From Acidobacteriota bacterium (GTDB taxonomy: Bacteria > Acidobacteriota > Thermoanaerobaculia > Multivoradales > JBCCEF01), in NCBI GenBank assembly GCA_039028635.1, contig JBCCHV010000024.1, forward strand, positions 1 to 64,000: a stretch of 64,000 nt of DNA. Direction: 5' to 3'. How positions within the stretch are numbered: the first letter of the stretch is position 1; each line of letters starts with the position of its first letter. Under the pieces are notes generated by a model. The model had not been told where the DNA came from, did not search any database, and saw nothing but the letters and a program-made list of their open reading frames with translations. Positions 17,814 to 32,007 of the stretch are shown piece by piece. Position numbers and translations under genes: made by a program.

Positions 17814-19129
17814 TGCCGCAAGATCTCGATCAAGGGTGCTGCTTCGCCTTTGATGGGCCGTACCTTCCGCTCCCTTTCCAAGCACACCGCCAGCCGCCCC
17901 GGCAGCTCGATTTCTCTTCCGATGACCGCTTCGAGGCCGTCGCGGAATTTGGCTGGGTGGGCGGTGGCGAGGACGATGCCGCTGGCCGGGCTTTCGTCGG
18001 CTTCCGCGCGCCGCTCGAGCTCTTGTCGCAGGGCGAGGTAGCCGACGGCGGTGTGGGGGTCGAGGAGGTAGCCGGTGCGGCGGTCGACGTCGGCCACCGC
18101 CCGGCGGGTTTGGTCGTCGTCGAAGCGGGCGCCGCGGAGGTCGCGCCTTAGGGCGGCGAGGTCGCCGTCGTAGAGCGCCTGGATGCGATCGAAGTTGCTC
18201 GGGTTGCCGACGTCCATGGCGTTCGACAGGGTGCGAACCGAAGGTCGCGGGCTGAAGACGCCATTCTCGAGGTACTCGGGCACGACGTCGTTGCGGTTGG
18301 TGGCGGCGACGAAGCCGGCGGTCTCGAGGCCGAGGCGTTGCGCCACCAGGCCGGCGGTGAGGTTGCCGAAGTTGCCGCTCGGGACCGAGAACAGGGGCGG
18401 CGGAGCGTCTGCCGGCAGCTGGGATGCCGCCAGGAAGTAGTAGAAGGCTTGGGGCAGCAGACGCCCAAAGCTGATCGAGTTGGCGGAGGTCAGGAGGAGC
18501 TCCTGACGAAGCTCCTGATCGGCGAAGACTTCCTTGACCATTCGCTGGCAGTCGTCGAAGGTGCCGTCGACGGCGAGCGCCTCGATGTTATCGCCCAGGG
18601 TGGTGAACTGGCGCTCCTGCAGCGGGCTGACCTTGCCTTCCGGAAAAAGGATGACGACGCGCGTCCGGGGCACCCCCAGGAAGGCTTGCGCGACGGCGCT
18701 GCCGGTGTCGCCGGAGGTCGCGACCAGCACGGTCAGCGGTCTCTCTTCGTCGCGCAGCAGGTAGGCCAGAAGGCGGGCGAGGAAGCGGGCTCCGACGTCC
18801 TTGAAGGCGAGGGTCGGGCCGTGGAAAAGCTCGAGGACGGAGAGGGTCGAATCGCCCACCGTCTCGAGGCGGCGCAAAGGGATGGGGAAGTCGAGGGCGT
18901 CGGCGATCAACGATCGCCGGTCGGCGGCCGGCAGGTCGCTCAGAAAGGGCGCGGCGATCCGGTCGGCGATGCCGAGGGGAGACTGCTCGCGCAGAGAAGC
19001 GAGAAAGACGTTGTCATAGGTCGGCCAACTCTCCGGCAGGTAAAGGCCGCCGTCCGGCGCCAGTCCTTTGACCAGGACCTGGGCGAGTCCAGCCGGCGGT
19101 GCCTCTCCACGGGTGCTGACGAATCTCAC
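17810..19129 (-). CDS. thrC: Threonine synthase
   Basis: A 439-residue PLP enzyme converting O-phosphohomoserine to threonine. The N-terminal MRFVSTRGEAPPAGLAQVLV and GLAPDGGLYLPESW are family-typical, Lys110 in HGPTLAFKDVGARF is the PLP lysine, VATSGDTGSAVAQAF is the conserved catalytic loop and VPSGNFGNLTAG binds the PLP phosphate. Length agrees with the long (class I) bacterial form. Last gene of the leftward operon thrA-asd-thrB-thrC, 31 bases after thrB. The stop overlaps that of the convergent unknown gene. Confidence 0.95.
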   Translation of the reverse strand: MRFVSTRGEAPPAGLAQVLVKGLAPDGGLYLPESWPTYDNVFLASLREQSPLGIADRIAAPFLSDLPAADRRSLIADALDFPIPLRRLETVGDSTLSVLELFHGPTLAFKDVGARFLARLLAYLLRDEERPLTVLVATSGDTGSAVAQAFLGVPRTRVVILFPEGKVSPLQERQFTTLGDNIEALAVDGTFDDCQRMVKEVFADQELRQELLLTSANSISFGRLLPQAFYYFLAASQLPADAPPPLFSVPSGNFGNLTAGLVAQRLGLETAGFVAATNRNDVVPEYLENGVFSPRPSVRTLSNAMDVGNPSNFDRIQALYDGDLAALRRDLRGARFDDDQTRRAVADVDRRTGYLLDPHTAVGYLALRQELERRAEADESPASGIVLATAHPAKFRDGLEAVIGREIELPGRLAVCLERERKVRPIKGEAAPLIEILRH

Positions 19130-19160
19130 GGTCGCCCCCTCTCCTCGACCCGTGCTGGGC

Positions 19161-20087
19161 TCATCGGACGACGCGGGCGCCCGGCGCTTCGACCAGCGTC
19201 ACCCAGGTATCGGCCGAGAGACCGGCCGCCGATTGCAGGGCCTGGCTCATCGCCCGCGCTACCTCCTGGGCGCGCTCTGTGCTCTCGACGAGGGCGAAAA
19301 TCGAGGGTCCACTGCCGGAGAGGCCGGCGCCGAGGGCGCCGGCGGCGAGGGCTGCGTCTTTGGCCTGGTCGAAGCCCGGAACGGCGTCGGTGCGCAGCGG
19401 CTCGGCGACGACGTCCACCAGGGCGCTCGCCAGCAGTCGAAGATCGTTCTGGCACAGGCCGGCGACCAGAGCCGCGGTGTTGCCCCATTGCGTCACCGCC
19501 CGGGTCAGCGGCACGCTGTCGCCAATAGCCTGGCGAGCGGAGCGGGTTTCGACCTCGACATCTGGCCGAACCAAGGCGCAGGCGAGGCCCGGCGGTACCG
19601 GCAAGCGATCGACCCGCAGCCCGCGGACCATGACGAAGCCGCCGTAGAGGCTGGGGGCGGCATTGTCGGCATGGGCGGTGCCGCAGGCCATGCGCTCGCC
19701 TTCGACGGCGCAGGCGAGAAGAATCTCCCGCGCACTGCCGAGGTCGAGGAGTGCGTTGACGGCGACCACCGCCGCCACCGCCGAGGCGGCGCTCGATCCG
19801 AGACCGCTGGCCAGCGGCATCTGCTTGTGGATGGCGAGCTCGACGCCGACCGCTTCGGCACCGTGGCGGGCGAGCAGTCGAGCCGCGGCGACGCCGGCGG
19901 TGTTGCTCTCGGCCTGGCGCGGCAGGCGGTCATCATCGCCGGTGATTTCGCGAATCACGATCCCGGGCTGGTCGCTTCGCCGGGCTTCGACGAGGTCTCC
20001 CGGACCGCGGACGGCGAAGCCGAAGAGGTCGAAGCCGCAGCAGACGTTCGACACACTCGCCGGGGCGAAAGCCCGAACCGTTTTCAT
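19161..20087 (-). CDS. thrB: Homoserine kinase
   Basis: A 308-residue GHMP kinase that phosphorylates homoserine with ATP. Start ATG 20087 gives the normal N-terminus MKTVRAFAPASVSNVCCGFD; the ATP-binding motif PLASGLGSSAASAVAAV lies at ~91-107, CGTAHADNAAPSLYGGFVMV follows, and GALGAGLSGSGPSIFALVES is the C-terminal Gly-rich motif. It lies between asd (19 bases upstream) and thrC, completing the homoserine-to-threonine branch. Confidence 0.95.
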   Translation of the reverse strand: MKTVRAFAPASVSNVCCGFDLFGFAVRGPGDLVEARRSDQPGIVIREITGDDDRLPRQAESNTAGVAAARLLARHGAEAVGVELAIHKQMPLASGLGSSAASAVAAVVAVNALLDLGSAREILLACAVEGERMACGTAHADNAAPSLYGGFVMVRGLRVDRLPVPPGLACALVRPDVEVETRSARQAIGDSVPLTRAVTQWGNTAALVAGLCQNDLRLLASALVDVVAEPLRTDAVPGFDQAKDAALAAGALGAGLSGSGPSIFALVESTERAQEVARAMSQALQSAAGLSADTWVTLVEAPGARVVR

Positions 20088-20106
20088 GGCGTCGGTCCTC
20101 GGCGGG

Positions 20107-21180
20107 TCAGGCTCGTCGTGCCTCGGCGTGGAGCCCACGCTCGACCGCCAGCTCGGCGAGCAGGAGGGCGCCGCCGGCGGCACCGCGCAGGGTGTTGTGG
20201 GACAGGGTGACGAACTTGTAGTCGAGCAGTGGGCAGGGGCGCAGTCGCCCGACGCTGGCCGCCATGCCGCCATCGAGATCGCGGTGCAGGCGCGGCTGGG
20301 GAACGTCCAGGCCATCGAGCCAGTGCACCGGTCGCGCCGGTGCCGTCGGCAAGCTCAGCTCCTGCGGTGCCGCCCGGAAATCGCTCCAAGCTCGCCGCAG
20401 ATCGTCCTCCGAGGCCTGCCGCTCGAGAGCCACCGAGACGCAGGCGGTGTGTCCATCGATCACCGGCACGCGGTTGCAGTGGGCGCTGACCCGCACCTCG
20501 GCCGGAATGATGGCGCTGCCGTCGAGGCGGCCGAGGATCTTGCGCGTCTCGGCCTCGACCTTTTCCTCTTCGTTGGGAATGAAGGGGATGATGTTGTCGA
20601 GCGTTTGCACCCCCGGTACTCCGGGTAGGCCGGCGCCGGAGACCGCCTGCAAGGTGGTGACGTGCAGCCGGTCGATGCCGAAGGCGTCGGCCAACGGTTT
20701 GAGCGCCAGCACCAGGCCGATGGTGGAGCAGTTGGGGTTGGTCAGCAGGGCGCCGCCGCGGTTGCGGAAGGCGTCTTGGTGACGGGCGAGATCGATGTGG
20801 TCCGGGTTGACCTCGGGCACCACCAGCGGAACGTCAGGGTCCATGCGATGGGCGCCGGCGTTCGACACCACCAGGTGGCCGGCAGCGGCGAGGGCCGGTT
20901 CGAGGGGGCCGGCCACCGACGAGCCGAGGGCCGAGAAGACCAGCGGACAGCCGGCCACGGAGGCGGGTTCGGTGGGTTGCAGCACGAGCTCGCGATAGGC
21001 CTCCGGAAGGGCCGTCGTCTGCAGCCAGCGCACCGCTTCTGCATAGGGCTTGCCGCTCGAACGCTGTGAGGCGGTGAGGACTCGGACCTCGAACCAAGGA
21101 TGATCGGCGAGGAGGGCGAGGAAGCGTTGGCCGACGCTGCCGGTGGCTCCCAGCACGGCGACCGGGATCTTGGCGCTCAT
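20107..21180 (-). CDS. asd: Aspartate-semialdehyde dehydrogenase
   Basis: A 357-residue enzyme reducing aspartyl phosphate to aspartate semialdehyde with NADPH. The nucleotide-binding VAVLGATGSVGQRFLALL is at 7-24 and the catalytic Cys151 is in LLTNPNCSTIG; LQAVSGAGLPGVPGVQTLDN and the C-terminal DGMAAS-VGRLRPCPLL pattern fit the archaeal/yeast-type subfamily rather than the E. coli type. Its ATG overlaps the thrA stop (ATGA). Because thrA here is the kinase-dehydrogenase fusion, asd lies between its two reactions in the pathway. Confidence 0.93.
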   Translation of the reverse strand: MSAKIPVAVLGATGSVGQRFLALLADHPWFEVRVLTASQRSSGKPYAEAVRWLQTTALPEAYRELVLQPTEPASVAGCPLVFSALGSSVAGPLEPALAAAGHLVVSNAGAHRMDPDVPLVVPEVNPDHIDLARHQDAFRNRGGALLTNPNCSTIGLVLALKPLADAFGIDRLHVTTLQAVSGAGLPGVPGVQTLDNIIPFIPNEEEKVEAETRKILGRLDGSAIIPAEVRVSAHCNRVPVIDGHTACVSVALERQASEDDLRRAWSDFRAAPQELSLPTAPARPVHWLDGLDVPQPRLHRDLDGGMAASVGRLRPCPLLDYKFVTLSHNTLRGAAGGALLLAELAVERGLHAEARRA

Positions 21181-23648
21181 GAGGTCCCCGGGGGGCTTTC
21201 CGCCACCGCTCGCAGCACGTCGGCGAAGACGCCGGCGGCGGTCACCTCGGGTCCGGCGCCGGGGCCGCGGATGGTGAGCGGCGGACTCTGGTAGCGCTCG
21301 GTGGTCAGGACCACCAGATTCTCGGTGCTGCGAGCGCTGGCCAGCGGATGGTCGTTGGGCACCGGGTCGAGGGCGACGCGGGCGCGGCCCTCGACCAGGC
21401 TGGCGCGGTAGCGCAGCCGGAAGCCCTCGGTGTCGGCGTCGCGGCGTTGCGCTTCGAAGGCTTCATCAAGGCTCGGCAGGTGCTGCCAGAAATCCTCGAG
21501 ATCGAGGTCGGGTCGAGCATCCTCGGCGGTGATCAGAGGCTCGACCCGTACGTCCTCGGGCTCGAGCTCGAGGCCTGCGACCCGGGCCAGAATCAGCAGC
21601 TTGCGGGCGACGTCTTGACCGCCGAGGTCGTCCCGAGGGTCCGGCTCCGTGAGCCCGAGATCGTGGGCCGACCGCACCGCCTCGCTGAATGCCATGCCGC
21701 TCTCGAGACGATCGAGGAGGAAGCTCAGGGTTCCCGAGAACAGGCCCTCGACCGAAATCAGACGATCGCCGGTGGCGACGAGGTCGGCGAGGCTGCGCAC
21801 CACCGGTAGCCCGGCGCCGACGGTGGTCTCGAAGTAGAGGCGCCCCCCGGATCGCCCAGCGCCGAGGTTCGGAATCAGAGGGCGAAAGGTCGCGAGCGGT
21901 CCCGCCAGGCGTCGCTTGTTGGCGGTCACCACGGCGACATCTTCTTCGAGCAGGCGATCGTAGAAGCCGGCGACGTCGTCGCTGGCGGTGCAGTCGACGA
22001 AGATGCGCCGCGAGCGGGCGTCTCCGAGGGCGAAGTCCACCAGGCCGGCGACGCCGCAAGGCTCTCCGCCGGTGGCGAGTCGCTCGGCGGCATCCGCCGG
22101 ATCGAGTCCCTGCGGGCTGGCGACCATCGTCTGGCTGTTGGCGACGGCGGCGAGGCGCAGATCGAGGCCTGCGGCGGCCAGGCGCTCGCGCTCGCTGGCG
22201 AGCTGCTGGAGAAAGGCGGCGCCGACCCTTCCGGTGCCGGCGAGGAAGATCTCGACCGCCTGCCGGGGTCCGGCGAAGAAAGCTTCGTGAACAGTCTGGA
22301 CGGCGCGCTCTTCGTCCTCGCCGTCGACCACCAGCGAGATGTTGCGCTCCGACGAGCCCTGGGCGATGGCTCGTACGTTGATGCGGTGAGCGCCGAGGCT
22401 GGCGAAGAGCCGTCCGGCGATGCCGGTCTGCTCGCTCATGCCGGAACCGACGACGGCGACGATCGAGAGGTCTTCTTCGACCACCAGCTCCTCGATCAGG
22501 CCGGCCTCGCGCTCGAGACTGAACTCGTCGTCGATGGCGCGGCGGGCCGAGGCGACGGCGGCGGGCTCGACGGCGAAGCAGATCGAGTGCTCACTCGAGG
22601 CCTGGCTGATCAGGATGACGCTGATACCTTCCCGGGCGAGGGCTCCGAAGAGCCGCATGGCGATCCCCGGGACGCCGACCATGCCGTCGCCCTCGAGCCG
22701 CATCAAGGCCACTCGGTGGACCGATGAGACGCCGCGCACGGGCCCGCCCTCGGTGCCGGCACCGGCCTCGACCCGGGTGCCCGGGAAGGCGGGATTGAGA
22801 GTGTTCTTGATCCACAGCGGGACGCCGGCACTGCGCGCCGGGTGGACCGTCGGTGGGTAGACCACTTTGGCGCCGAAGTGAGACAGCTCCATGAGCTCTT
22901 CGTAGCCCATCTGAGAGATCGGCGAGGCGGCCTCGACCCAGCGTGGATCGGCGCTCAGGACGCCGTCGACGTCGGTCCACAGCTCCACGGCCTTGGCCTT
23001 CAGGGCGGCGCCGATGAGGGCCGCCGTGTAGTCGGAGCCACCGCGCCCGAGGGTGGTGGTTTCGCCCGCCGGCGTGGCGCCGAGAAAGCCGGTGACGACC
23101 TGCAGGGAGGTCGCTCCGGAGAAGAACTCGCGCAGTCGGTCGTAGGTGGCGTCGAGATCGACCCGGGCATTGCCGAAGCGGTCGTCGGTCACCACCAGGC
23201 GCCGTGCGTCGCAGCGCTCCGCCTCGATGCCAACCCGGCGCAGCGCCGCCGCGACGATCCCCGTCGACAAGCGTTCGCCGTAGCTCAAGATGCTGTCGCA
23301 GGTGCGCGGGCTCGCTTCTCGCACCAGCCAGACGCCGCGCAGCAGGTCGTCGAGATCCTCGAAGGCGCGGCCGATGGCGTCGCCGAGGGCGCTGCGCTCG
23401 TCCTCTCCGGCGAGGCTTTCCGCCGCCGCCCGATGACGCTCGGCGAGGCGCTCGACGATCTCGCGGTAGGACTCGTCGCGTTGTTCGGCGGCGCGAGCCG
23501 CCGCCGCCAAGTCGTCGGTGACGCCGCCGAAGGCGGAGAGCACGCAGGCCACGGGGCCGGACTCGAGGGCAGTGGCGAGAATGCCCGCGACGGTGACGAT
23601 ACGTTCCGGGGTGGCCAGCGACGAGCCACCGAACTTCAGGACTTTCAC
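21177..23648 (-). CDS. thrA: Bifunctional aspartate kinase / homoserine dehydrogenase
   Basis: GTG 23648 gives MKVLKFGGSSLATPERI, the exact aspartokinase start; the frame is open further upstream but without homology. The 823 residues match E. coli ThrA in length. Aspartokinase spans ~1-290 (TTTLGRGGSDYTAALIGAAL, ELWTDVDGVLSADPRW), two ACT regulatory segments ~310-460 (EGDGMVGVPGIAMRLFGALA, VGSGMSEQTGIAGRLFASLG) and homoserine dehydrogenase ~465-823 (IFLAGTGRVGAAFLQQL, GLFSGTLSFLLDRLESG, DPRDDLGGQDVARKLLILAR). First gene of the threonine operon; ACT domains imply threonine feedback inhibition. No convincing leader peptide or attenuator was found upstream. Confidence 0.95.
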   Translation of the reverse strand: MKVLKFGGSSLATPERIVTVAGILATALESGPVACVLSAFGGVTDDLAAAARAAEQRDESYREIVERLAERHRAAAESLAGEDERSALGDAIGRAFEDLDDLLRGVWLVREASPRTCDSILSYGERLSTGIVAAALRRVGIEAERCDARRLVVTDDRFGNARVDLDATYDRLREFFSGATSLQVVTGFLGATPAGETTTLGRGGSDYTAALIGAALKAKAVELWTDVDGVLSADPRWVEAASPISQMGYEELMELSHFGAKVVYPPTVHPARSAGVPLWIKNTLNPAFPGTRVEAGAGTEGGPVRGVSSVHRVALMRLEGDGMVGVPGIAMRLFGALAREGISVILISQASSEHSICFAVEPAAVASARRAIDDEFSLEREAGLIEELVVEEDLSIVAVVGSGMSEQTGIAGRLFASLGAHRINVRAIAQGSSERNISLVVDGEDEERAVQTVHEAFFAGPRQAVEIFLAGTGRVGAAFLQQLASERERLAAAGLDLRLAAVANSQTMVASPQGLDPADAAERLATGGEPCGVAGLVDFALGDARSRRIFVDCTASDDVAGFYDRLLEEDVAVVTANKRRLAGPLATFRPLIPNLGAGRSGGRLYFETTVGAGLPVVRSLADLVATGDRLISVEGLFSGTLSFLLDRLESGMAFSEAVRSAHDLGLTEPDPRDDLGGQDVARKLLILARVAGLELEPEDVRVEPLITAEDARPDLDLEDFWQHLPSLDEAFEAQRRDADTEGFRLRYRASLVEGRARVALDPVPNDHPLASARSTENLVVLTTERYQSPPLTIRGPGAGPEVTAAGVFADVLRAVAESPPGTS

Positions 23649-23820
23649 CTCGACCTCCGGTCCACCCGCATCGGCGGGAAGGAGTCGCGCCGGGACCCTT
23701 CCTCGGCGCCGTTGGGAAGGCGGGATCCTACTACAGGCGGGCGTTTTCGACCTTGGCGAGCGCCACGATGGTGGTGATCGAGACGTTGGCTCGATCACCC
23801 TTCCGGGCACATAATGAGCC

Positions 23821-24360
23821 ATGGCTCCGCTGCCTTTTCTCGGCGAGCCGGCGAGCCCCGTGGCGGCGACCCTCTTGGGTGGTCTCCTGCTGCTCGCCGG
23901 TCGCAAGGTTTTCTGGCTCGCCGTCGGCGTGACCGGCTTCGCCTTCGGCCTCGCCCTCGCCATCCAATACCTTCGCCTCGAGTCGTTCTGGCTGCACGTC
24001 ACCCTGGCCGTTCTCGCCGGTGTCTTGGGCGTCCTGCTGGCCTTCTTCGTGCAGCGGCTGGCGGTGGCCGTGGCCGGTTTTCTGCTTGGCGGTCAAGGCG
24101 GGCTGTTGCTCTGGCAGGCCCTCGAGGTGGCGCCCGATCTGGCCCCCTGGATGGTCTTCGTGGCCGCCGGATTGGTGGTGTCGATCCTCGCCGGAAGCCT
24201 GTTCGAGATGGCCCTCGTCCTGCTCTCGGCGGTGGTCGGTGCCAATCTGGTGGTCGACGCCTGGGGAGGGCAGCCCCCCTGGTCGCTGCTGATCATCGTT
24301 CTGCTGGCGCTCTTCGGAGCCTTCGTGCAGCTCACCTTCCTCGAGCGCGAGAAACGCTAG
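23821..24360 (+). CDS. DUF4203/TMEM198-like multispanning membrane protein
   Basis: A 179-residue protein with about seven hydrophobic helices: PVAATLLGGLLLLAGRKVFW, GVTGFAFGLALAIQYL, LHVTLAVLAGVLGVLLAFFV, RLAVAVAGFLLGGQGGLLLW, MVFVAAGLVVSILAGSLFEM, ALVLLSAVVGANLVVDAW and LLIIVLLALFGAFVQLTFLE. The Gly-rich helix packing resembles TMEM198/DUF4203 proteins, whose function is unknown. Divergent from thrA, convergent with gltA (5 bases between stops). No operon partner. Confidence 0.65.
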   Translation: MAPLPFLGEPASPVAATLLGGLLLLAGRKVFWLAVGVTGFAFGLALAIQYLRLESFWLHVTLAVLAGVLGVLLAFFVQRLAVAVAGFLLGGQGGLLLWQALEVAPDLAPWMVFVAAGLVVSILAGSLFEMALVLLSAVVGANLVVDAWGGQPPWSLLIIVLLALFGAFVQLTFLEREKR

Positions 24361-24365
24361 CCCGC

Positions 24366-25520
24366 CTACGACCCTGCGCCAACCGATTCGGCGAGAAGGT
24401 CGGGCTTCGCCCGAGCGGCGAGCGGCACCCATCGCCTGCCTTGCTCGCCGACGTACTCCGATCGCGGCCGGATCAGCCGGCCGCTCTCCTGCTGCTCGCG
24501 CACATGGGCCATCCAGCCGGCGATGCGACCGATGGCGAAGGTGGGGGTGAAGAGGTCCGTCGTCAGCCCGAGGCCATCGAGCAAGAGGGCGGTGTAGAAC
24601 TCGACGTTGGTGGCGATGCGGCGGTGCGGCTTGCGTTGCCGGAGCTGTTCGAGGGCGATCGCTTCGACGCCCCGGGCGAGCTCATAGAGCGCGCGATCTC
24701 CGTCGTCGGCGAAGAACTCCTCGGCGGCCTGAGCCAGCACCTCGGCCCGTGGGTCGCGGACCCGGTAGACCCGGTGGCCGAATCCCATCAGTCGTTCGCC
24801 GCGGTCCAGAGCGTCTTGGATCCAGGCTTCGGCACGGTCCACTCGGCCGATCGCCTTGACCATGTCGAGGGCCGGTCCAGGGGCACCGCCGTGGAGCGGA
24901 CCCTTGAGGGCGCCGAGGGCTCCGACGGCGGCATCGACGGGGTCGGAACCGGTGGAGACGATCACCCGGGCGGTGAAGGTGGAGGCGTTGAAGCCGTGGT
25001 CGCAAACCGTGTTGAGGTAGGTCTCGAGGCCGCGCACCCGGGCGGCCGAGGGCACCTCGCCGGTGAGCTGGTGCAGGTAGCTGGCGGCGTGCCCCAGGTC
25101 TTGGCGCGGCTCGACCGGAGGCCGATCGTGCAACAACCGGTGATAGGCGCCGACCAGCAGCGGCAGGGTGGCGATCAGCGTGCGAGCGTCGGCGGCTGCG
25201 GTGAGGGCGAGGCTGGCGGTGCCGACGGTGAGGGCATCCATCGGCGCGAGCCGGCGCTCGGCGGCGGCGCTCAGCAGCTCGAGGGTCGCCGGCTCGAGGT
25301 GGCGCCGGGAGGCGAGGTCGGCGCAGAAGGCTTCGAGCTCGTCCGGGGTTGGTAAGCGGTCGTTCCAGAGCAGGAAGATCGTTTCTTCGAAGCGGGCCCG
25401 CGGAGCCAGCTCTTCGACCGGGTAGCCGCTCAGGGTGAGCTGGCCGGCTTCGCCGTCGACGCGGCTGAGGGTGGTTTCGGCGGCGACGATGCCTTCGAGG
25501 CCGGGACTGTAAGAGCTCAT
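24366..25520 (-). CDS. gltA: Citrate synthase
   Basis: A 384-residue short-form citrate synthase: opens SSYSPGLEGIVAAETTLSRV, then LTLSGYPVEELA, with catalytic-region motifs NASTFTARVIVSTGSD, GALKGPLHGGAPGPALDM (His), LMGFGHRVYRVRDPRA (His) and NVEFYTALLLDGLGL (acidic residue at the usual Asp position is Glu, common in the citrate/2-methylcitrate group). It condenses oxaloacetate with acetyl-CoA; use of propionyl-CoA cannot be excluded. Malate dehydrogenase is also encoded in this window, at 52.7 kb. It is divergent from a citrate-synthase-like protein with a DNA-binding domain, and the intervening region holds inverted repeats. Confidence 0.9.
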   Translation of the reverse strand: MSSYSPGLEGIVAAETTLSRVDGEAGQLTLSGYPVEELAPRARFEETIFLLWNDRLPTPDELEAFCADLASRRHLEPATLELLSAAAERRLAPMDALTVGTASLALTAAADARTLIATLPLLVGAYHRLLHDRPPVEPRQDLGHAASYLHQLTGEVPSAARVRGLETYLNTVCDHGFNASTFTARVIVSTGSDPVDAAVGALGALKGPLHGGAPGPALDMVKAIGRVDRAEAWIQDALDRGERLMGFGHRVYRVRDPRAEVLAQAAEEFFADDGDRALYELARGVEAIALEQLRQRKPHRRIATNVEFYTALLLDGLGLTTDLFTPTFAIGRIAGWMAHVREQQESGRLIRPRSEYVGEQGRRWVPLAARAKPDLLAESVGAGS

Positions 25521-25593
25521 GTCACAACTCCTTTCGGGGAGCGCTCGGGCCGGGAATGACCGGGCCGAGCCGGTTCAATTTCCTTGAGATCGG

Positions 25594-25626
25594 CAATATT
25601 GTCAATCTTGATTTATGAATCAATAT
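25594..25626. promoter_or_regulatory. Inverted repeats between gltA and the HTH-citrate synthase gene
   Basis: An AT-rich stretch in otherwise GC-rich DNA. It contains TTGATT (25608-25613) and AATCAA (25618-25623) as a 6-base inverted repeat with 4-base spacer, nested within ATATTG (25596-25601) and CAATAT (25621-25626). CAATATTG at 25594-25601 is itself palindromic. The position between divergent genes, one encoding an HTH protein, fits an operator; binding is untested. Confidence 0.5.
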
Positions 25627-25657
25627 GGGCGAAACTCGGTATCGGGAGGAGAAATCG

Positions 25658-26860
25658 ATGGATCAGGAGTTCTTGACGGCGCGTCAGGCGGCGACGGCTT
25701 TGGGAGTCAGCCGTTCGACTCTCTATGCCTACGTCAGTCGAGGCATGCTGCGCTCCGAGGCGGTGCCCGGCGATCCGCGAGCGCGCCGCTACGGCCGCGC
25801 CGAGGTCGAGCGACTGTTGTCCCGCAAGGCCCTGCGGCGGGATCCCGAGGGCAGTGTTCCGACGGCTCTCGATTGGGGCACGCCAGTGCTCGAATCGGCG
25901 ATCACCCTGATCGAGGGGGGCCGCCTGTTCTACCGCGGGCACGATGCGCTGCTGCTGGCTCGCCGATGGAGCGTGGAGGAGGTTGCGGCGCTGCTGTGGA
26001 CCGGAGATTCCGAGGACTCGACCCACCTCTTCGCCGCCGATCGGGCACCGCAGGTCGAGCTGCCGGCGGCGGCCGACCGGCTCGAGCCGGTCGAGCGCTG
26101 CCAGGTGGCCCTGCCGCTGGCCGCGGTGGACGACTTCGCCGCCTGGGACCTGCGACCGAGCGCCCTCGCCCTGACCGGGGCGCGCATCGTGCGGCTGTTG
26201 ATTTCGGTGGTGAGCGGGCGCGCCACCTCACCGGCCGGTCTGGTGGCGAGCCTCGATCAGGACGCTCGGCCCGGCGCCGCGGCGGCGTTGCGCGGCGCCC
26301 TCATCCTGTGCGCCGACCACGAACTCAACGTTTCGTCCTTCACGGCTCGCTGCGTCGCCTCCGCCGAGTCCACCCTCTACGACGTGGTCGGCGCCGGCCT
26401 CGGGGCGCTGCGCGGGCGCCGCCACGGCGGCTGCTCGTCGCAGGTCGAGGCCTTGATGCGCGAGATCGAGGGCGCCGGCGAAGTCCGGCGAGTGCTCGCT
26501 GATCGCCTGCGCCGGGGCGAAGAGATCCCCGGCTTCGGGCACCCGCTGTATCCGGCCGGCGATCCGCGGGCGAAGCTACTGCTCGAGCTCGCCGGCGCCG
26601 TGCGCGGTGGCGCAGCGACCCTCGAGCCGATCGACCGACTGATCACCGCGGCCCGCGCCCTGATCGGCGAAGAGCCCACCGTCGATGTCGCCCTGGTCGC
26701 CCTGGCCCGGGTGCTCGAGTTGCCGCCGGGAGGACCGGTGGCCCTCTTCGCCCTCGGCCGCAGCCTGGGCTGGATCGGTCAGGCGATCGAGCAGTACGGT
26801 ACCGGTCGCTTGATTCGGCCGCGTGCCCGCTACTCGGGTCCGCGCCAGGGTGAGGCTTGA
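25658..26860 (+). CDS. Citrate-synthase-like protein with N-terminal DNA-binding HTH
   Basis: Start ATG 25658 has GGAGGAG upstream; 400 residues. Residues ~5-55 are a MerR/excisionase-like helix-turn-helix: LTARQAATALGVSRSTLYAY, then VSRGMLRSEAVPGDPRARRY and AEVERLLSRK. The remainder is a citrate synthase fold: LIEGGRLFYRGHDALLLARR, NVSSFTARCVASAESTLYDV, LRGRRHGGCSSQVEALMREI (His), EIPGFGHPLYPAGDPRAKLL (His) and PTVDVALVALARVLELP (Asp). The three catalytic-type residues are thus present. Such fusions are known only as predicted proteins to my knowledge; divergence from gltA suggests a regulator sensing citrate-synthase ligands or moonlighting as an enzyme. Confidence 0.85.
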   Translation: MDQEFLTARQAATALGVSRSTLYAYVSRGMLRSEAVPGDPRARRYGRAEVERLLSRKALRRDPEGSVPTALDWGTPVLESAITLIEGGRLFYRGHDALLLARRWSVEEVAALLWTGDSEDSTHLFAADRAPQVELPAAADRLEPVERCQVALPLAAVDDFAAWDLRPSALALTGARIVRLLISVVSGRATSPAGLVASLDQDARPGAAAALRGALILCADHELNVSSFTARCVASAESTLYDVVGAGLGALRGRRHGGCSSQVEALMREIEGAGEVRRVLADRLRRGEEIPGFGHPLYPAGDPRAKLLLELAGAVRGGAATLEPIDRLITAARALIGEEPTVDVALVALARVLELPPGGPVALFALGRSLGWIGQAIEQYGTGRLIRPRARYSGPRQGEA

Positions 26861-26899: not shown

Positions 26900-27268
26900 A
26901 TGTTCTGCCCAAATTGCGGTGCCGAGTTTCGTGACGAGATCGACCAATGCGCCGACTGCGGGGTGCCCTTGGTCGCCGAATCGCCGCAGGGTGGCGGTAG
27001 CGATCCGGTGGTTCTCCTGCGGACCCCCGACACGGTTGAGCTGAGCGTCGTCAAATCGTTGCTCCAGGCCGAAGGGATCGCCCACTTCGTGCAGGGCGAA
27101 GAGTCGCTCCACATGCTCCCGATCGCCGGCCATGGTGGCTTTTTTTCGAAGCACGGATTGTCGGCGGCGGTGCTGGTGCCGGAAGATCAGCTCGATCGCG
27201 CGCGCGAGGTCCTCGCCGCCCAGGTGCCCCCGGACCCTGATCCCGAGCCGGAGCCGGGTTCCGAGTAG
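26900..27268 (+). CDS. Zinc-ribbon protein with DUF2007-like domain
   Basis: A 122-residue cytosolic protein. The N-terminus MFCPNCGAEFRDEIDQCADC is a four-Cys zinc ribbon (CxxC...CxxC). Residues ~36-105 (VVLLRTPDTVELSVVKSLLQ, then AEGIAHFVQGEE, SAAVLVPEDQLDRAREVLAA) form a DUF2007-type signal-transducing fold thought to bind small ligands or proteins. The tail PPDPDPEPEPGSE is disordered. Function unknown. It lies just downstream of the HTH-citrate synthase gene (39 bases) and converges on the FAD reductase gene of the polyketide cluster. Confidence 0.75.
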   Translation: MFCPNCGAEFRDEIDQCADCGVPLVAESPQGGGSDPVVLLRTPDTVELSVVKSLLQAEGIAHFVQGEESLHMLPIAGHGGFFSKHGLSAAVLVPEDQLDRAREVLAAQVPPDPDPEPEPGSE

Positions 27269-27271
27269 AGC

Positions 27272-28384
27272 TCAGCGACCCGTGGCGAACCGCCAGACCA
27301 GCCGCGTCGCCGGCACCAGCCCGAGTTGGCTCGGCGGCAAAGCCCGGCAATGAATCGCCAGCAGGCGGTCGAAGACGCTCCGCTCGCGGGCCAGGGCGCG
27401 GAGCGCCCGGCGCCGCAAAGCGGGCCGCTTCTCGAGAGCGAGCAACAGCTCCGTCATGGCGTCCGGCAAACGCCGCAGGCGCCGGCAAGCGCGCTCGTAG
27501 CGCTGCGGCCGGCCGCTGGCGACGGCGTCGGCCAGGGCCTCGGCCTGGTGCAGGGCCAGGGACATGCCTTCGCCGGTGATGGCGTCGACATAGCCGGCGG
27601 CGTCGCCGAGCAACAAGGTGCGGTCCCGGCGGACGCCTCGCACCCGCTGGCGTAGCGGCCCGCAGCCCCGCGCCCGGGAGGTGGTGGCGCAGCCGGCGAG
27701 CCGTTCCGCGAGGGTCGGGAAGCGCGCCAAGAGCTGCTCCCAGGTGGCCTTGCCACGGCGCCAGAGAATCGCCACTCCGACCTCGTCGGCGGCAACCGGG
27801 GTGATATAGGCCTCGGCGTTTTCGGCCCAGTGGACCTCGACCCGTTCACTCCAGGGGGCGCAGCGGAAGTGCTGCCGAACGCCGAAGCGGCGGTCCTGCG
27901 CCGCCTTGCCGGCGAGGCCGGCCCAGCGGCGCAGGGGGGAGCGCAGTCCGTCCGCCGCCACCAGGTAGCGACCAAGCCGCCTGCGATCGCCGCTCACCAC
28001 CTCCACCCCTTGCTCGCCGCGGGCTTCGATCGTTTCGACCTTGGAACCCCACAGCAGCTCGACGCCGAGGGCTTCGGCCCGCTGCACCATCGCCTGGTGG
28101 AGCGCCGGTCGCCGCACCCCGAGCCCGTGGCCGGCCGGGAAGTCACCCTCGGCGATGGTGCCGTCCGATTGGCAGTAGCGGATGCCGCGGAAGGGCCGGC
28201 CGGTGACGCGGACACCGAAGCGCTCGAGGCAAGCGACGCCGTCCGGCATCAAGCCTTCGCCGCAGGGCTTGTCGAGGGGTGGCCGACGCTGCTCCAGGAG
28301 GCTGACCGAGAGGCCCTGCAGGCGACACGCGATGGCAGCCCCCAGGCCGGCCGGTCCGCCGCCGACGATCACCAGGTCGGTCAT
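27272..28384 (-). CDS. FAD-dependent oxidoreductase of the type III PKS cluster (geranylgeranyl-reductase-like)
   Basis: ATG 28384 overlaps the fatty acyl-AMP ligase stop (ATGA) and gives 370 residues. The N-terminal MTDLVIVGGGPAGLGAAIAC is the FAD Rossmann motif; PCGEGLMPDGVACLERFGV is the group-specific second motif, YLVAADGLRSPLRRWAG the GD-like motif and RTLLLGDAAGYVDAITGEGM the FAD ribityl-binding motif. These place it among geranylgeranyl reductase/monooxygenase-like flavoproteins. In alkylpyrone and alkylresorcinol clusters such enzymes hydroxylate or reduce the polyketide lipid; the exact reaction is inferred from context. Confidence 0.8.
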   Translation of the reverse strand: MTDLVIVGGGPAGLGAAIACRLQGLSVSLLEQRRPPLDKPCGEGLMPDGVACLERFGVRVTGRPFRGIRYCQSDGTIAEGDFPAGHGLGVRRPALHQAMVQRAEALGVELLWGSKVETIEARGEQGVEVVSGDRRRLGRYLVAADGLRSPLRRWAGLAGKAAQDRRFGVRQHFRCAPWSERVEVHWAENAEAYITPVAADEVGVAILWRRGKATWEQLLARFPTLAERLAGCATTSRARGCGPLRQRVRGVRRDRTLLLGDAAGYVDAITGEGMSLALHQAEALADAVASGRPQRYERACRRLRRLPDAMTELLLALEKRPALRRRALRALARERSVFDRLLAIHCRALPPSQLGLVPATRLVWRFATGR

Positions 28385-30156
28385 CCTTTGCCACCTTCCG
28401 CGGCGCGGGGTCGGCTCACCCGGGAGCGCGCGTAGGCGACGCTGGAGCGGGCCAGGGCCCCGATCATGCTCAGGCCGGTGACCGGGTTCGGGGCGGTGAG
28501 CTCGTCGGCGAGATAGCGCTGCAGGGCCTCCTGGCGGCGCAGCTTTCCAGAGGTGGTGCGGGGAAGAGTGCCGGGTTCGAGAATCACCACCCGATCGGCC
28601 TTGAGGCCGGTGGCTCCGAGCACCCGCTCGGAGCAGCGCTGCGGCAGACCCTCGATCTCTTCCTTCGTTGCTTCGCGGGCCGTCTCCACCAGCAGCGCGA
28701 GGATCTCGCGCTCTTGCCCTTCGGGCAGCCAACCGACGGCGATGGCGCAGCCGGTGCGCAGGCCTGGCAGGTCCTGCAGGGATTGCTCGATCTCCTCCGG
28801 CGCATAGTTGCGACCGCGCAGCACGATGAGGTCCTTGGCGCGGCCCGTCAGGTAGAGCTCGCCGTCGCGGACGAAGCCGAGATCGCCGGTGTCGAGCCAG
28901 CCGTCGACCAGGGCCCGGGCTGTGGCCTCGGGGCGGCCGAGGTAGCCGCTCATCAGGGAGGGACCGCGCACCCACAGCTTGCCGATCTCACCGTCCGGGA
29001 CGGCGCGGGTGGCGGGGTCTTGGGCCGTCACCGGCAGGATGCGAAGCTCGAATCCCGGCAGGGGGCGACCCAGGGAGGGCAGCTCGAGGCCGGCGTCGGC
29101 GGCCTCGGCACGGCCCTCCTGGGCGAGGTGATCGCGATCGAAGGTGGTGCTCGAGAAGGGCTGATCGAGGGGCGAAAAGGTCACCGCCAGGGCGGCTTCC
29201 GAGAGTCCGTAGACGGGGGTCAAGGCGGTGCCCTGGAAGCCCCAGCGGGCGAAGCGCTCGCGGAAGGCGCGCAGGACGCTGGGGGCGACCGCCTCGGCGC
29301 CGTTGAGGGCCACCTGCCAGCACGACAGATCGACCCCGTCCATCTCCTCGTCGGTGATCTTCTCCAGGCACAGGCCGTAGGCGAAGTTGGGCGCCGGGGA
29401 GATGGTGGCGCGATAGCGGGAAATGGCGCGCAGCCACAGGACCGGTCGCACCACGAAGGCCTCCGGCGGTAGCAGGGTGAGGGTGGCCGGTCGCTCGAGG
29501 GCCGGGAAGACACAGCCGATCAAACCCATGTCGTGGTAGAGCGGCAGCCAGCTGACGCCGGTGTGGTGGCCCTCCGGCCAGAAGGAGTTGAGGGCCTCGG
29601 TTTGGGCTCGGATGGCGCGGTGGCTGAGGGCGACCGGTTTGGGGTCGACGGTGGTGCCGGAGGAAAACTGCACCAGGGCGAGATCCTCGGCGCGATCGGT
29701 GGCGATCTCATCCCGCGGCGGCGCCGTCGGCAGGTCGTCGAGAGTGCGGCAGCCGAGGGCAGGCCGAGCCCGCTCGATGGTCTCGCCGAGTATGCGCCGC
29801 ACCCGGGGATCGGCGAGCACCAGGCGCGCCCCGCTGGCGGAGATCAGCCCGGCGGTGCGCAGGTGGTACTCCTGCAGGCGGCCGAGCCGCACCGGCGGAT
29901 AGAGCGGTACCGGCACGGCGCCACAGGCGAGGATGCCGAAGAAGCCGTAGAAAAAGGCTTCGCCGGTCGGGAAGATCATCGCTACCCGGTCGCCGGCGGC
30001 GATGCCGGCGCTCTCCAGCCGGCCGGCGACGCCGAGGGCACGGTAGTGAATCTCCTGCCAGGAGACGAAGTTGGCGCGCTCGCGGCGGTCGAGGAAACGC
30101 AGGCCGGAATCCGGGTGGTCGGCGGCGCGGCGCAGAAGCTGGCCGAGGGTGCTCAT
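28381..30156 (-). CDS. Fatty acyl-AMP ligase (FAAL-type)
   Basis: A 591-residue adenylate-forming enzyme. Motifs: ALVQFSSGTTVDPKPVALSH (P-loop, ~162-181), GVSWLPLYHDMGLIGCVFPA typical of FAALs, LTPVYGLSEAALAVTFSPLD, GWLDTGDLGFVRDGELYLTG and the C-terminal RTTSGKLRRQEAL lysine. FAALs activate fatty acids as acyl-adenylates and pass them to an acyl carrier protein rather than CoA; the carrier gene is immediately upstream, its stop overlapping this ATG. In the operon it would supply the acyl starter for the type III polyketide synthase. Confidence 0.9.
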   Translation of the reverse strand: MSTLGQLLRRAADHPDSGLRFLDRRERANFVSWQEIHYRALGVAGRLESAGIAAGDRVAMIFPTGEAFFYGFFGILACGAVPVPLYPPVRLGRLQEYHLRTAGLISASGARLVLADPRVRRILGETIERARPALGCRTLDDLPTAPPRDEIATDRAEDLALVQFSSGTTVDPKPVALSHRAIRAQTEALNSFWPEGHHTGVSWLPLYHDMGLIGCVFPALERPATLTLLPPEAFVVRPVLWLRAISRYRATISPAPNFAYGLCLEKITDEEMDGVDLSCWQVALNGAEAVAPSVLRAFRERFARWGFQGTALTPVYGLSEAALAVTFSPLDQPFSSTTFDRDHLAQEGRAEAADAGLELPSLGRPLPGFELRILPVTAQDPATRAVPDGEIGKLWVRGPSLMSGYLGRPEATARALVDGWLDTGDLGFVRDGELYLTGRAKDLIVLRGRNYAPEEIEQSLQDLPGLRTGCAIAVGWLPEGQEREILALLVETAREATKEEIEGLPQRCSERVLGATGLKADRVVILEPGTLPRTTSGKLRRQEALQRYLADELTAPNPVTGLSMIGALARSSVAYARSRVSRPRAAEGGKG

Positions 30157-30407
30157 GGCGAAGCCAGCTTACGCTGCACGATGGCGATCAGGTCGGACAC
30201 CGTCTCGATGCCCGCCTCGTCGCCGTCGTCGAGGAGGATGCGGAAGCGGTTCTCGATCTCCACCGCCAGGGTGAGAAGGCGCAGCGAGTCGAGGCCGAGG
30301 TCTTCTACCAGCCGCATTTCCGGTTGGAGGGCGCCCTTCCACTGCAGGTGTTCCTGGGCGACTTTGGTGATGTCGGCGAGGATGGCCTCGGCGTTGGGGG
30401 TGGTCAT
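30153..30407 (-). CDS. Acyl carrier protein
   Basis: An 84-residue carrier protein with the phosphopantetheine site Ser41 in RLVEDLGLDSLRLLTLAVEI, flanked by the usual three-helix pattern. ATG 30407 overlaps the stop of the methyltransferase gene upstream (ATGA) and its own stop overlaps the acyl-AMP ligase start. It is a dedicated carrier, not the fatty acid synthase ACP, judging from position, and would accept the acyl group from the FAAL and present it to the type III PKS. Confidence 0.9.
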   Translation of the reverse strand: MTTPNAEAILADITKVAQEHLQWKGALQPEMRLVEDLGLDSLRLLTLAVEIENRFRILLDDGDEAGIETVSDLIAIVQRKLASP

Positions 30408-30949
30408 CGGGCAGCTCCCTCGGGCAGGCGAGTCTCCGCCAGGGCTTGCTCCTCGACTCGGATACGGGTTCGCAGGAGGAACAGGTTGGCGAGGCTCCAG
30501 CCGAGGGCCGTCAGCCAGGCGCCGTGGATCAGCGGCAGGGCGGCGATCTCGATCACCACCGCCAGGTAGTTGGGATGGCGCAGGTAGCGGAACGGGCCGC
30601 CCGCGACCAGCGGTTCGCCGGGCACCACCAGGACGCGGGTCGTCCAGCGTTCGCCGAGGGTGCGCACGGTCCAGTAGCGCAGGCCCATGGCGGCGGCGAC
30701 GGCCAGACCCGCGACGAGGGCGAGAGTCGGCCGAAAAGGCCGATCGAGGAGCCAGACCTCGAGGGGGCCGGCGGCCAGGAAGGAGCTGTGGAGGGCCACC
30801 ATCCAGGGGTAGTGGGACTGTCCGACCTCGAAGCCGCCGCGAGCCCGCAGGGCGCTTTCGTGGCGACGCGACAGGCGCAGCTCGAAAAGCCTCTCGAGAG
30901 CGACCGCGAGGACCACCAAGGTGAACCAGCCTCGGCTGTCGATCACCAC
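30404..30949 (-). CDS. Isoprenylcysteine carboxyl methyltransferase-like membrane methyltransferase
   Basis: A 181-residue membrane protein with four or five helices. The C-terminal signature VPGEPLVAGGPFRYLRHPNY then LAVVIEIAALPLIHGAW is the ICMT/PEMT motif that binds S-adenosylmethionine. Homologues paired with type III polyketide synthases (BpsB beside BpsA in Bacillus) O-methylate alkylpyrones, and the same job is likely here. GTG-like start at 30949 overlaps the end of the PKS gene by 7 bases. Confidence 0.85.
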   Translation of the reverse strand: MVIDSRGWFTLVVLAVALERLFELRLSRRHESALRARGGFEVGQSHYPWMVALHSSFLAAGPLEVWLLDRPFRPTLALVAGLAVAAAMGLRYWTVRTLGERWTTRVLVVPGEPLVAGGPFRYLRHPNYLAVVIEIAALPLIHGAWLTALGWSLANLFLLRTRIRVEEQALAETRLPEGAAR

Positions 30950-32007
30950 CGCAGCAACACCAGCTCGGAGCAGAACCCCGGTCCCATGGCCAACAGCACG
31001 CCATAACTGCCGGCCGCTGGCCGGTGGTTGGCGAGAGTCTCCTCGAGCACCAAGAGCACCGAGGTGGAGGACAGATTGCCGACTTCCCGCAGGCTGCGCC
31101 AGGTGACGGCGAGATCCTCTTCATCGAGATCGAGGCCGGCCTGAATGGCGGCCAGAACCTTCGGTCCGCCGGGATGACAAACCCAGGACTGGATGTCGCT
31201 TCGGCGCAAGCCGTGATCGGCGAGAAAGCGATCGACGTCGTCGGCGAGGTGCTCGCGGGCGAGTTGCGGCACCTGTGGCGACAGAACGATGGCGAAGCCG
31301 CGCTCCGAGATGTCCCAGCCCATCGCCCGTTCCGTGTCGCGGTAGAACACCGAGCGGGTGGCGACGATCTCCGGGCCCTCGCTACCGTTCGAGGTCGGTC
31401 CACGGTCGGCGCCTCGCACGACCACGGCGGCGGCGCCGTCTCCGAACAACCCCGAGGCGATGAGGTTGGGAATCGACAGATCTTCCCGTTGCAGGGTGAG
31501 CGAGCAGAGCTCGACCGAGAGCAGCACCGCCACCTGCTCGGGATAGGCCTTCACGTAATCGGCGGCGCGGGCGATGCCGGCGGCGCCGGCGACGCAGCCG
31601 AGGCCGAAGATGGGGATCCTCCGGAGGTTCGTCGGTAGACCGAGACGATTGACCAGCCGGGCGTCGAGGGAAGGCGTGGCGATACCGGTGACGGACACGG
31701 TGATCAAGGCTCCGACATCCGACACCGTCAGTCCGGCCCGCTCCAGGGCTTGACGAATGGCGCCTTCGCCGACCTCCTGGGCGACTCGAATCCAGGCATC
31801 GTTGGCCTGCCCCCAGCGCTCAAGCTTGGAGTACTCGTCAATCGGCAGGGCGAGGTGCCTGCCTCCGACCAGGACATTGCGGTGGAGCTGCTCGAGTCGG
31901 CCGAGATTGAAGTGGCGCTGGGCCCAATGCTCGCGCAGCGCCGCGATCAGGGTCTCTTGATCGTAGTAGTGGGGCGGCAGGGCCTTGCCGACGGCGGCGA
32001 TCCTCAT
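30943..32007 (-). CDS. Type III polyketide synthase (alkylpyrone/alkylresorcinol-type)
   Basis: A 354-residue thiolase-fold enzyme with the catalytic triad visible: Cys138 in IFGLGCVAGAAG, His278 in WVCHPGGPKVLA, Asn311 in EVGNLSSTSVLLV. GFGD-like loop is SGLFGDGAAAVVV. It condenses an acyl starter with malonyl-CoA units to form pyrones or resorcinols. ATG 32007 has a GAGG box upstream. First gene of the leftward operon PKS-methyltransferase-ACP-FAAL-FAD oxidoreductase, all with short overlaps. Linkage to FAAL and ACP suggests a long-chain acyl starter delivered on a carrier instead of CoA. Confidence 0.93.
   Translation of the reverse strand: MRIAAVGKALPPHYYDQETLIAALREHWAQRHFNLGRLEQLHRNVLVGGRHLALPIDEYSKLERWGQANDAWIRVAQEVGEGAIRQALERAGLTVSDVGALITVSVTGIATPSLDARLVNRLGLPTNLRRIPIFGLGCVAGAAGIARAADYVKAYPEQVAVLLSVELCSLTLQREDLSIPNLIASGLFGDGAAAVVVRGADRGPTSNGSEGPEIVATRSVFYRDTERAMGWDISERGFAIVLSPQVPQLAREHLADDVDRFLADHGLRRSDIQSWVCHPGGPKVLAAIQAGLDLDEEDLAVTWRSLREVGNLSSTSVLLVLEETLANHRPAAGSYGVLLAMGPGFCSELVLLRW

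Follow-up and report, generated by a model that had tools for sequence, protein, structure and literature searches.

The window, by which we mean the whole 64,000-nucleotide stretch analyzed here from an Acidobacteriota contig (JBCCHV010000024.1), carries two genes that lie head to head, 137 bp apart, with inverted repeats between them. One of the genes encodes a protein that joins a helix-turn-helix (HTH) to a citrate synthase fold (HTH-CS protein), and the other encodes a citrate synthase. The features of the locus are the following.

24366-25520, minus strand: divergent citrate synthase gene, probably accessory (384 aa, PRK12350/CitA-like, with Glu where the catalytic Asp would be)
25521-25657: divergent intergenic region, 137 bp
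25577-25605, minus strand: candidate promoter reading leftward into the citrate synthase gene (TTGACA, complement of 25600-25605; 17-bp spacer; -10 position GAAATT, complement of 25577-25582)
25596-25626: outer repeat ATATTG...CAATAT
25599-25624: conserved putative operator TTGTCAATcTTGATTtatgAATCAAT, matching the consensus at 21 of 21 defined positions
25599-25629, plus strand: candidate rightward promoter (TTGTCA at 25599-25604, 19-bp spacer, TATGGG at 25624-25629)
25602-25611: overlapping dyad TCAA-TC-TTGA, within the putative operator
25608-25623: inner dyad TTGATT-N4-AATCAA, in the window TTGATT-TATG-AATCAA
25658-26860, plus strand: HTH-CS protein gene, 400 aa, start placed from its Shine-Dalgarno sequence (winged HTH at about residues 5-60, complete citrate synthase fold at about 73-393)

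The ATG at 25658 is most likely the translation start of the HTH-CS gene, as a strong Shine-Dalgarno sequence, GGGAGGAG, lies ahead of it at 25644-25651; the reading frame can also open at 25625, and the ATG was preferred for this sequence. With the start taken there, the repeats at 25596-25626 and the putative operator are entirely intergenic. A first-pass annotation of this DNA had the gene transcribed away from a citrate synthase gene and placed inverted repeats at 25608-25623 and 25596-25626 between the two; both repeats are present, and the divergent product of 24366-25520 (minus strand) matches PF00285 at 379 bits.

The same annotation proposed that an HTH is fused to a citrate synthase fold, and this is borne out by matches of the HTH-CS protein above the Pfam cutoffs for HTH_17 (PF12728, 30.2 bits; cutoff, 27), MerR_1 (PF13411, 26.8 bits; cutoff, 21.6), and Citrate_synt (PF00285, 202.5 bits; cutoff, 27), the last of which places it in the citrate synthase superfamily. 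By its sequence, the head is an N-terminal winged HTH of the MerR type: HTH_17 was found in all 40 members scanned and MerR_1 in 37 of them (E value of 0.001), and a profile of the HTH head compared with the PDB gave SoxR as the top match (E value of 0.0021), followed by TipA (E value of 0.059). No LysR domain, as expected of a LysR-type CitR, was found among the Pfam matches, and the protein fell below the cutoff of every NCBIfam synthase model listed, the best being TIGR01800 at 140 bits versus a cutoff of 421. An AlphaFold2 model built from an alignment of 40 sequences (mean pLDDT, 89.8) predicts an HTH backed by a strand pair plus a complete citrate synthase fold, for which the best solved fold is 3hwk_D (Z score of 35.8; root mean square deviation of 2.4 over 315 residues). 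MerR proteins dimerize through a long central helix that forms an antiparallel coiled coil; in this monomer model, helices span residues 47-61 and 63-72, and pLDDT is low at about 61-80; the HTH modelled alone reached a pLDDT of 54.7, which is too poor for use.

The neighbor had been called gltA, a name we do not retain. The genome has a third citrate synthase on a separate contig, C44, which scores 468 bits versus 379 and 199 for the other two, and the neighbor has Glu at the position of the catalytic Asp362 of E. coli GltA, as does its best PDB match, 2c6x ("citrate synthase 1"), with which it shares the NVEFY motif. We take 2c6x to be CitA of B. subtilis. The neighbor matches NF009005 at 361 bits (cutoff, 332). 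It is probably an accessory CitA-like synthase and not the housekeeping gltA, the accessory role being deduced from the separate, higher-scoring synthase on C44.

The putative operator recurs well beyond the window. Its consensus, TTGTCAATnTTGATT-N4/5-AATCAAT, with 21 defined positions, was read from 11 intergenic regions, so that those 11 loci are not independent in the following counts while the others are. Ninety-seven of the 98 distinct HTH-CS proteins have enough upstream DNA to be scored, and within 400 bp a site matching at least 18 of 21 positions was found for 76 of the 97, versus 0 of 485 dinucleotide shuffles (at least 15 of 21: 86 of 97 versus 7 of 485). Within about 2.4 kb upstream, these numbers rise to 94 of 97 at the lower threshold and 84 of 97 at the higher one, the shuffle control referring to the 400-bp range. 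Several columns of the site are invariant in 89 loci, which were preselected by a score of at least 15 and include two duplicates, and in the eight alpha- and betaproteobacterial plasmid loci the inner gap has 5 bp where the other loci have 4. The cultivable Rubrobacter marinus (L048) carries the gene pair with a less perfect site of 17 of 21. Among six further loci, several of them apparently repeats of loci already counted, five score 18 to 21 of 21 (a citrate synthase partner is present at four of the five), and one (L136) scores only 14. When the DNA of 25590-25635 was folded as a single strand, a z score of -3.0 was obtained, yet the conserved dyad was not formed.

Gene and site also occur together across genomes. 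In the window's own genome (6.28 Mb), a search for the core pattern at up to two mismatches gave the exact copy at 25602-25624 and one other copy with two mismatches. That the inverted repeat exceeds chance is supported by this sole exact match and by its recurrence across phyla. Of 59 genomes in the order, the window genome included, 11 have an HTH-CS gene (in G027 it is split over two contigs), and 10 of the 59 contain the exact core GTCAAnnTTGATn6ATCAA, each as a single copy and always at the HTH-CS locus; the eleventh HTH-CS genome, G036, has a one-base variant of the site. No exact core was found in the 48 genomes of the order without HTH-CS. With a slightly shorter core, 14 of 14 HTH-CS genomes have an exact copy at the HTH-CS locus, and one exact copy lies elsewhere, in G384; one-mismatch copies lie elsewhere in several of the 14, and in G384 fewer one-mismatch matches were counted for the core than for its reversed control (9 versus 33). 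The genomes compared are related and not independent, and one site per genome fits a single-target regulator. Within the phylum, the distribution is patchy (10 of 396 sampled genomes at an E value of 1e-70 or better, window genome included), and judged from the sequences, HTH-CS and nearly the same site recur in several bacterial phyla.

What lies on the other side of the site is exchanged. A citrate synthase partner was found in 75 of the first 94 loci, head to head in all 75; these 94 include three duplicates (L010 = L070, L012 = L109, and L014 = L112), two of them among the 75. In these three pairs, relatives from the window's order have a protein identical to that of a named acidobacterial bin, in agreement with an acidobacterial origin of the window. 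Counted over the 98 distinct HTH-CS proteins, with L010 taken by its other contig, 76 have a citrate synthase as their divergent partner, 8 have an HMGL-like acyltransferase (L013, L038, L049, L067, L076, L111, L115, and L126), 3 a DUF2332 protein (L096, L120, and L122), 2 a coenzyme A (CoA) transferase (L121 and L125), and 1 a cupin (L050). The HMGL-type partner, which we considered as a Re-face citrate synthase, scores far under the cutoffs of the homocitrate, isopropylmalate, and citramalate synthase models that it matches. All 14 loci with an enzyme other than citrate synthase encode the pocket residues HHHRDRR and have a site of 15 to 21 of 21. Eight loci are without a recognized partner (L036, L041, L058, L062, L068, L089, L106, and L110), and five of these have a site of at least 15. 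L041, L062, and L068 form a clade (support, 100/99) without a divergent partner and with no site above 14 of 21, and L106 keeps the site, although the citrate synthase that is the partner in L107, its near twin, was not found there. A tree of the 98 proteins, in which 22 forks are open, sets HTH-CS apart from the two outgroup synthases at 99/99. On this tree, the partner labels require 13 changes and the DUF2332 label requires two, both forced by well-supported branches.

These results lead us to regard it as probable that the HTH-CS protein is a single-target transcription regulator that uses its citrate synthase pocket as a ligand sensor and places its HTH on the intergenic dyad. Local control of both the divergent gene and the HTH-CS gene through the intergenic repeat is strongly supported by phylogenetic footprinting, by the co-occurrence of gene and site, and by the replacement of partners while the site is kept. 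The proposal of the first-pass annotation that the protein controls gltA survives in part, the presumed target being the accessory CitA-like synthase.

Both candidate promoters in the window have weak -10 boxes (3 of 6 matches). Across the family, the leftward arrangement TTGACA-17-TAnnnT, whose -35 is the complement of TGTCAA in the site, was found with at least four matches to TATAAT in 37 of 89 loci versus 3 to 7 of 89 at eight other spacings. The rightward arrangement TTGTCA-19-TATATn reached at least four matches in 41 of 89 loci; here, 33 of 89 also score at a 21-bp spacing because of an AT-rich tail, and in 15 of 87 loci no more than 31 nt separate the operator start from the nearest start codon, so that a promoter with a 19-bp spacer is not general in the family. 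For these reasons, we consider the leftward promoter, that of the citrate synthase gene, likely, and the case for a MerR-type promoter in the rightward direction suggestive. An excerpt from PMC8113463 gives MerR promoters a spacer of 19 to 20 bp, and at many HTH-CS loci the dyad likewise lies between a putative -35 and -10 that are 19 bp apart.

From the sequences, we infer DNA binding, the ligand, action as a dimer, the use of both promoters, and the sign of control, which could work together in the following way. A homodimer of the citrate synthase fold would carry two winged-HTH heads of the MerR/excisionase type that bind the intergenic dyad, and its pocket would sense oxaloacetate, citrate, or both, or else a closely similar compound. 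According to an excerpt from PMC4524684, citrate synthase closes upon binding oxaloacetate and acetyl-CoA, which would give HTH-CS a ready switch, the opening or closing of the fold shifting the HTH heads. The operator overlaps the presumed -35 of the synthase promoter and sits inside the presumed promoter of the HTH-CS gene itself, and its occupancy may therefore set the expression of both divergent genes. Repression of both promoters that is relieved by ligand is our best guess for the sign of control, and we lean toward it only slightly.

The nature of the ligand is suggested by the active site, for which residues are numbered as in E. coli GltA without Met (reference sequence from MG1655). 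We take His264, His305, and Asp362 to be the catalytic residues of the E. coli enzyme and His229, Arg314, Arg387, and Arg407 to be those on the oxaloacetate side. The HTH-CS protein of the window retains all seven, so that the earlier statement that two His and one Asp remain was right about the residues and too low in its count. All seven are present in 89 of the 98 distinct HTH-CS proteins, and 3 more are truncated before R407. The CoA side looks different. Of the residues K309 and K355/K356, presumably the basic residues on the CoA side in E. coli, the first is replaced by Pro in the window protein and in 82 of 98 HTH-CS proteins (basic in only 6), and the other two fall in gaps in 98 of 98, so the basic CoA-side residues of a functional citrate synthase are not found here. 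In the partners, the K309 column is Lys or Arg in 75 of 75, and Glu stands at D362 in 74 of the 74 rows that reach that position (duplicates included). By these alignments, HTH-CS and the partner synthase differ in complementary ways, on the D362 side and on the K309 side. In pig citrate synthase, Arg46, Arg164, and Lys366 contact CoA, according to an excerpt from PMC8455617. The segment from R314 to D362 averages 37.3 residues in HTH-CS (range, 29 to 52) versus 48.0 in the partners. We assume that pig Lys366 should fall in the stretch missing from this segment and that pig Arg46 may correspond to R93 of the window protein, a possible CoA-contact Arg that is invariant in 98 of 98 HTH-CS proteins; Ala is found there in 50 of 75 partners. 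The dicarboxylate pocket thus looks intact in sequence, and the features of the CoA side seem reduced rather than lost. The conserved pocket speaks for oxaloacetate or citrate as the putative ligand, and binding of acetyl-CoA appears less likely because two basic CoA-side positions are gone, though one possible CoA-contact Arg is invariant.

An intact pocket might equally belong to a trigger enzyme, here a catalytically active synthase of citrate or a related product that would bind DNA as well and so signal how much substrate it carries. We hold this to be possible but doubtful. The conservation of D362 (98 of 98) and H305 (92 of 98) would suit an enzyme equally as a binding pocket, the seven residues are intact in all but a few members, a full citrate synthase fold is predicted by the model, and added DNA-binding domains are already known in the trigger enzymes PutA and BirA (excerpt from PMC8249747). 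Against it stand the losses on the CoA side, with its shortened segment, and six natural H305 mutants among the 98 (three to Q and one each to L, to N together with R387H, and to D), two of which, L074 and L113, form a sister pair in the tree. Five of the six still have a citrate synthase partner and a site of 20 to 21 of 21; in the sixth, L110, the site reaches only 15 of 21 and such a partner is missing. Six homologues without H305, five of them with site and partner, argue that catalysis is not the conserved role, which weighs against the second option of the first-pass annotation, an enzyme that also represses its own region. PutA and PepA are described as single-target regulators in the same excerpt from PMC8249747, and citrate synthase is absent from the five E. 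coli trigger enzymes that it names. Like PutA and BirA, HTH-CS combines an enzyme fold with a DNA-binding domain; unlike in these, catalysis by HTH-CS is putative, and the catalytic His is lost in some members.

Other known systems resemble single features of the proposed regulator. HTH-CS shares the N-terminal winged HTH of the MerR/excisionase type with MerR regulators, from which it differs in having a full citrate synthase fold as its effector part. The reuse of enzyme folds as sensors is known from MocR/GabR, in which an HTH is joined to an aminotransferase fold that serves as the effector domain; HTH-CS is built in the same way from an HTH and a metabolic enzyme fold, but the HTH of MocR/GabR is of the GntR type and the enzyme fold is unrelated. 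In Bacillus subtilis, the gene of the LysR protein CitR adjoins that of the accessory citrate synthase CitA, much as the HTH-CS gene lies beside an accessory synthase, and CitR is without a citrate synthase fold. The M. tuberculosis proteins PrpC (3hwk, a methylcitrate synthase) and CitA have the same complete fold (Z scores of 35.8 and 33.2), with active-site residues kept as in HTH-CS, whereas HTH-CS is set apart from type I citrate/2-methylcitrate synthases by its added HTH, its shortened CoA-side segment, and its scores below the NCBIfam cutoffs.

We think it improbable that HTH-CS is instead a regulatory subunit that forms mixed dimers with the divergent synthase, so that the promoter reads enzyme abundance or occupancy. 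Citrate synthase active sites draw residues from both subunits (excerpt from PMC4524684), linkage of the two genes is seen in 75 of 94 loci, and HTH-CS keeps D362 where the partners have Glu in 74 of 74 rows, all of which would suit mixed dimers; however, HTH-CS and the partner share only 29% identity, and HTH-CS persists with an intact pocket beside unrelated partner enzymes. HTH-CS could also be a plain citrate synthase whose HTH is a vestige or an accident and to which the repeat is unrelated. Plasmid records, in which most of the listed homologues bear the name "citrate synthase family protein," might imply this, but we regard it as very improbable given that the HTH part is no less conserved than the synthase part (mean identity to the window protein of 55% and 51%, respectively), that HTH_17 is present in 40 of 40 members, and that gene and site co-occur. 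With most of the closest plasmid homologues listed annotated only as citrate synthase, their likely role as regulators would escape annotation.

We consider it rather likely that HTH-CS represents a widespread undescribed class of transcription factors in which a whole citrate synthase serves as the metabolite sensor and which has carried its own near-invariant operator between phyla, where it was reused to control now one single enzyme, now another (citrate synthases, HMGL-family acyltransferases, CoA transferases, and DUF2332 proteins). A search of the open-access literature in PubMed Central found no description of an HTH-joined citrate synthase regulator. Oxaloacetate and citrate mark the entry point into the TCA cycle; to our knowledge, few direct transcriptional sensors of oxaloacetate have been described. 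A regulator that senses with the pocket of the entry enzyme itself would, if true, show how central metabolism can be read, and the conserved 26-bp operator, the compact divergent unit, and the natural catalytic mutants make this readily testable; biosensors could be another use for the unit, as one of their parts.

The breadth of this class should be read with the sampling in mind. The homologues were collected by similarity to the window protein, and 80 of the loci are the best 80 of 237, which makes the sample lean toward close relatives. Metagenome bins supplied most of the homologues, and errors are possible in some of the taxon names. Ten plasmid loci in the set were selected from the 30 best plasmid matches listed, and the set leaves out distant plasmid homologues (about 31 to 38% identity over most of the query) from Burkholderia, Caballeronia, and others.

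The surroundings of the divergent pair vary. An all-against-all comparison of neighboring open reading frames found no other generally conserved neighbor in its 25 largest clusters, and by eye the largest of these were mostly antisense shadows of the two genes. The gap between the HTH-CS gene and its partner exceeds 400 bp in 19 of 75 loci, and the inserted genes are lineage specific, including cupin and PLP-enzyme-like genes and, by eye, threonine-dehydratase-like, MutS-like, and SDR-like genes. In the loci inspected by eye, the site remains at the divergent junction.

Inserted genes separate HTH-CS, the putative regulator with a MerR-like winged HTH and a citrate synthase fold, from its divergent citrate synthase gene in eight loci of homologues (L044, L045, L054, L056 and L095, L097, L098, L100), in each case on the HTH-CS side of the pair. 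The conserved dyad, presumed to be the operator, lies 1.0-2.2 kb from HTH-CS in these loci and closer to citrate synthase, a placement which suggests that the inserted gene may now be part of the regulated unit.

At L013, L067, L076, L111, L126 and L049, citrate synthase is replaced by an HMGL-family acyltransferase, and it is an attractive guess that this enzyme is a Re-citrate synthase. The HTH-CS proteins of L049 and L038 are nearly identical in the tree of homologues; their records are named Deltaproteobacteria and Klebsiella pneumoniae (MAG), respectively, and the latter is probably a misnamed bin. A Deinococcus plasmid retains HTH-CS and the dyad (18 of 21 positions) beside an HMGL partner that is matched in two overlapping pieces, so that its reading frame looks broken:
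L115:3378-4660, HMGL partner, Deinococcus sp. QL22 plasmid

The following genes lie around the pair in the window, named by Pfam match except where marked:
17810-24002 (-), threonine-pathway cluster adjoining the pair (aspartokinase-homoserine dehydrogenase fusion, semialdehyde dehydrogenase, GHMP kinase, threonine synthase)
26900-27268 (+), downstream of HTH-CS: a small DUF2007 protein whose start resembles a zinc ribbon
27272-32007 (-), FAD oxidoreductase, AMP-binding enzyme, ORF (30153-31403, no Pfam match), chalcone/stilbene-type synthase
34034-37168 (-), large TPR-CHAT protein
In gene content, the 27272-32007 group resembles a cluster of the type III polyketide kind.
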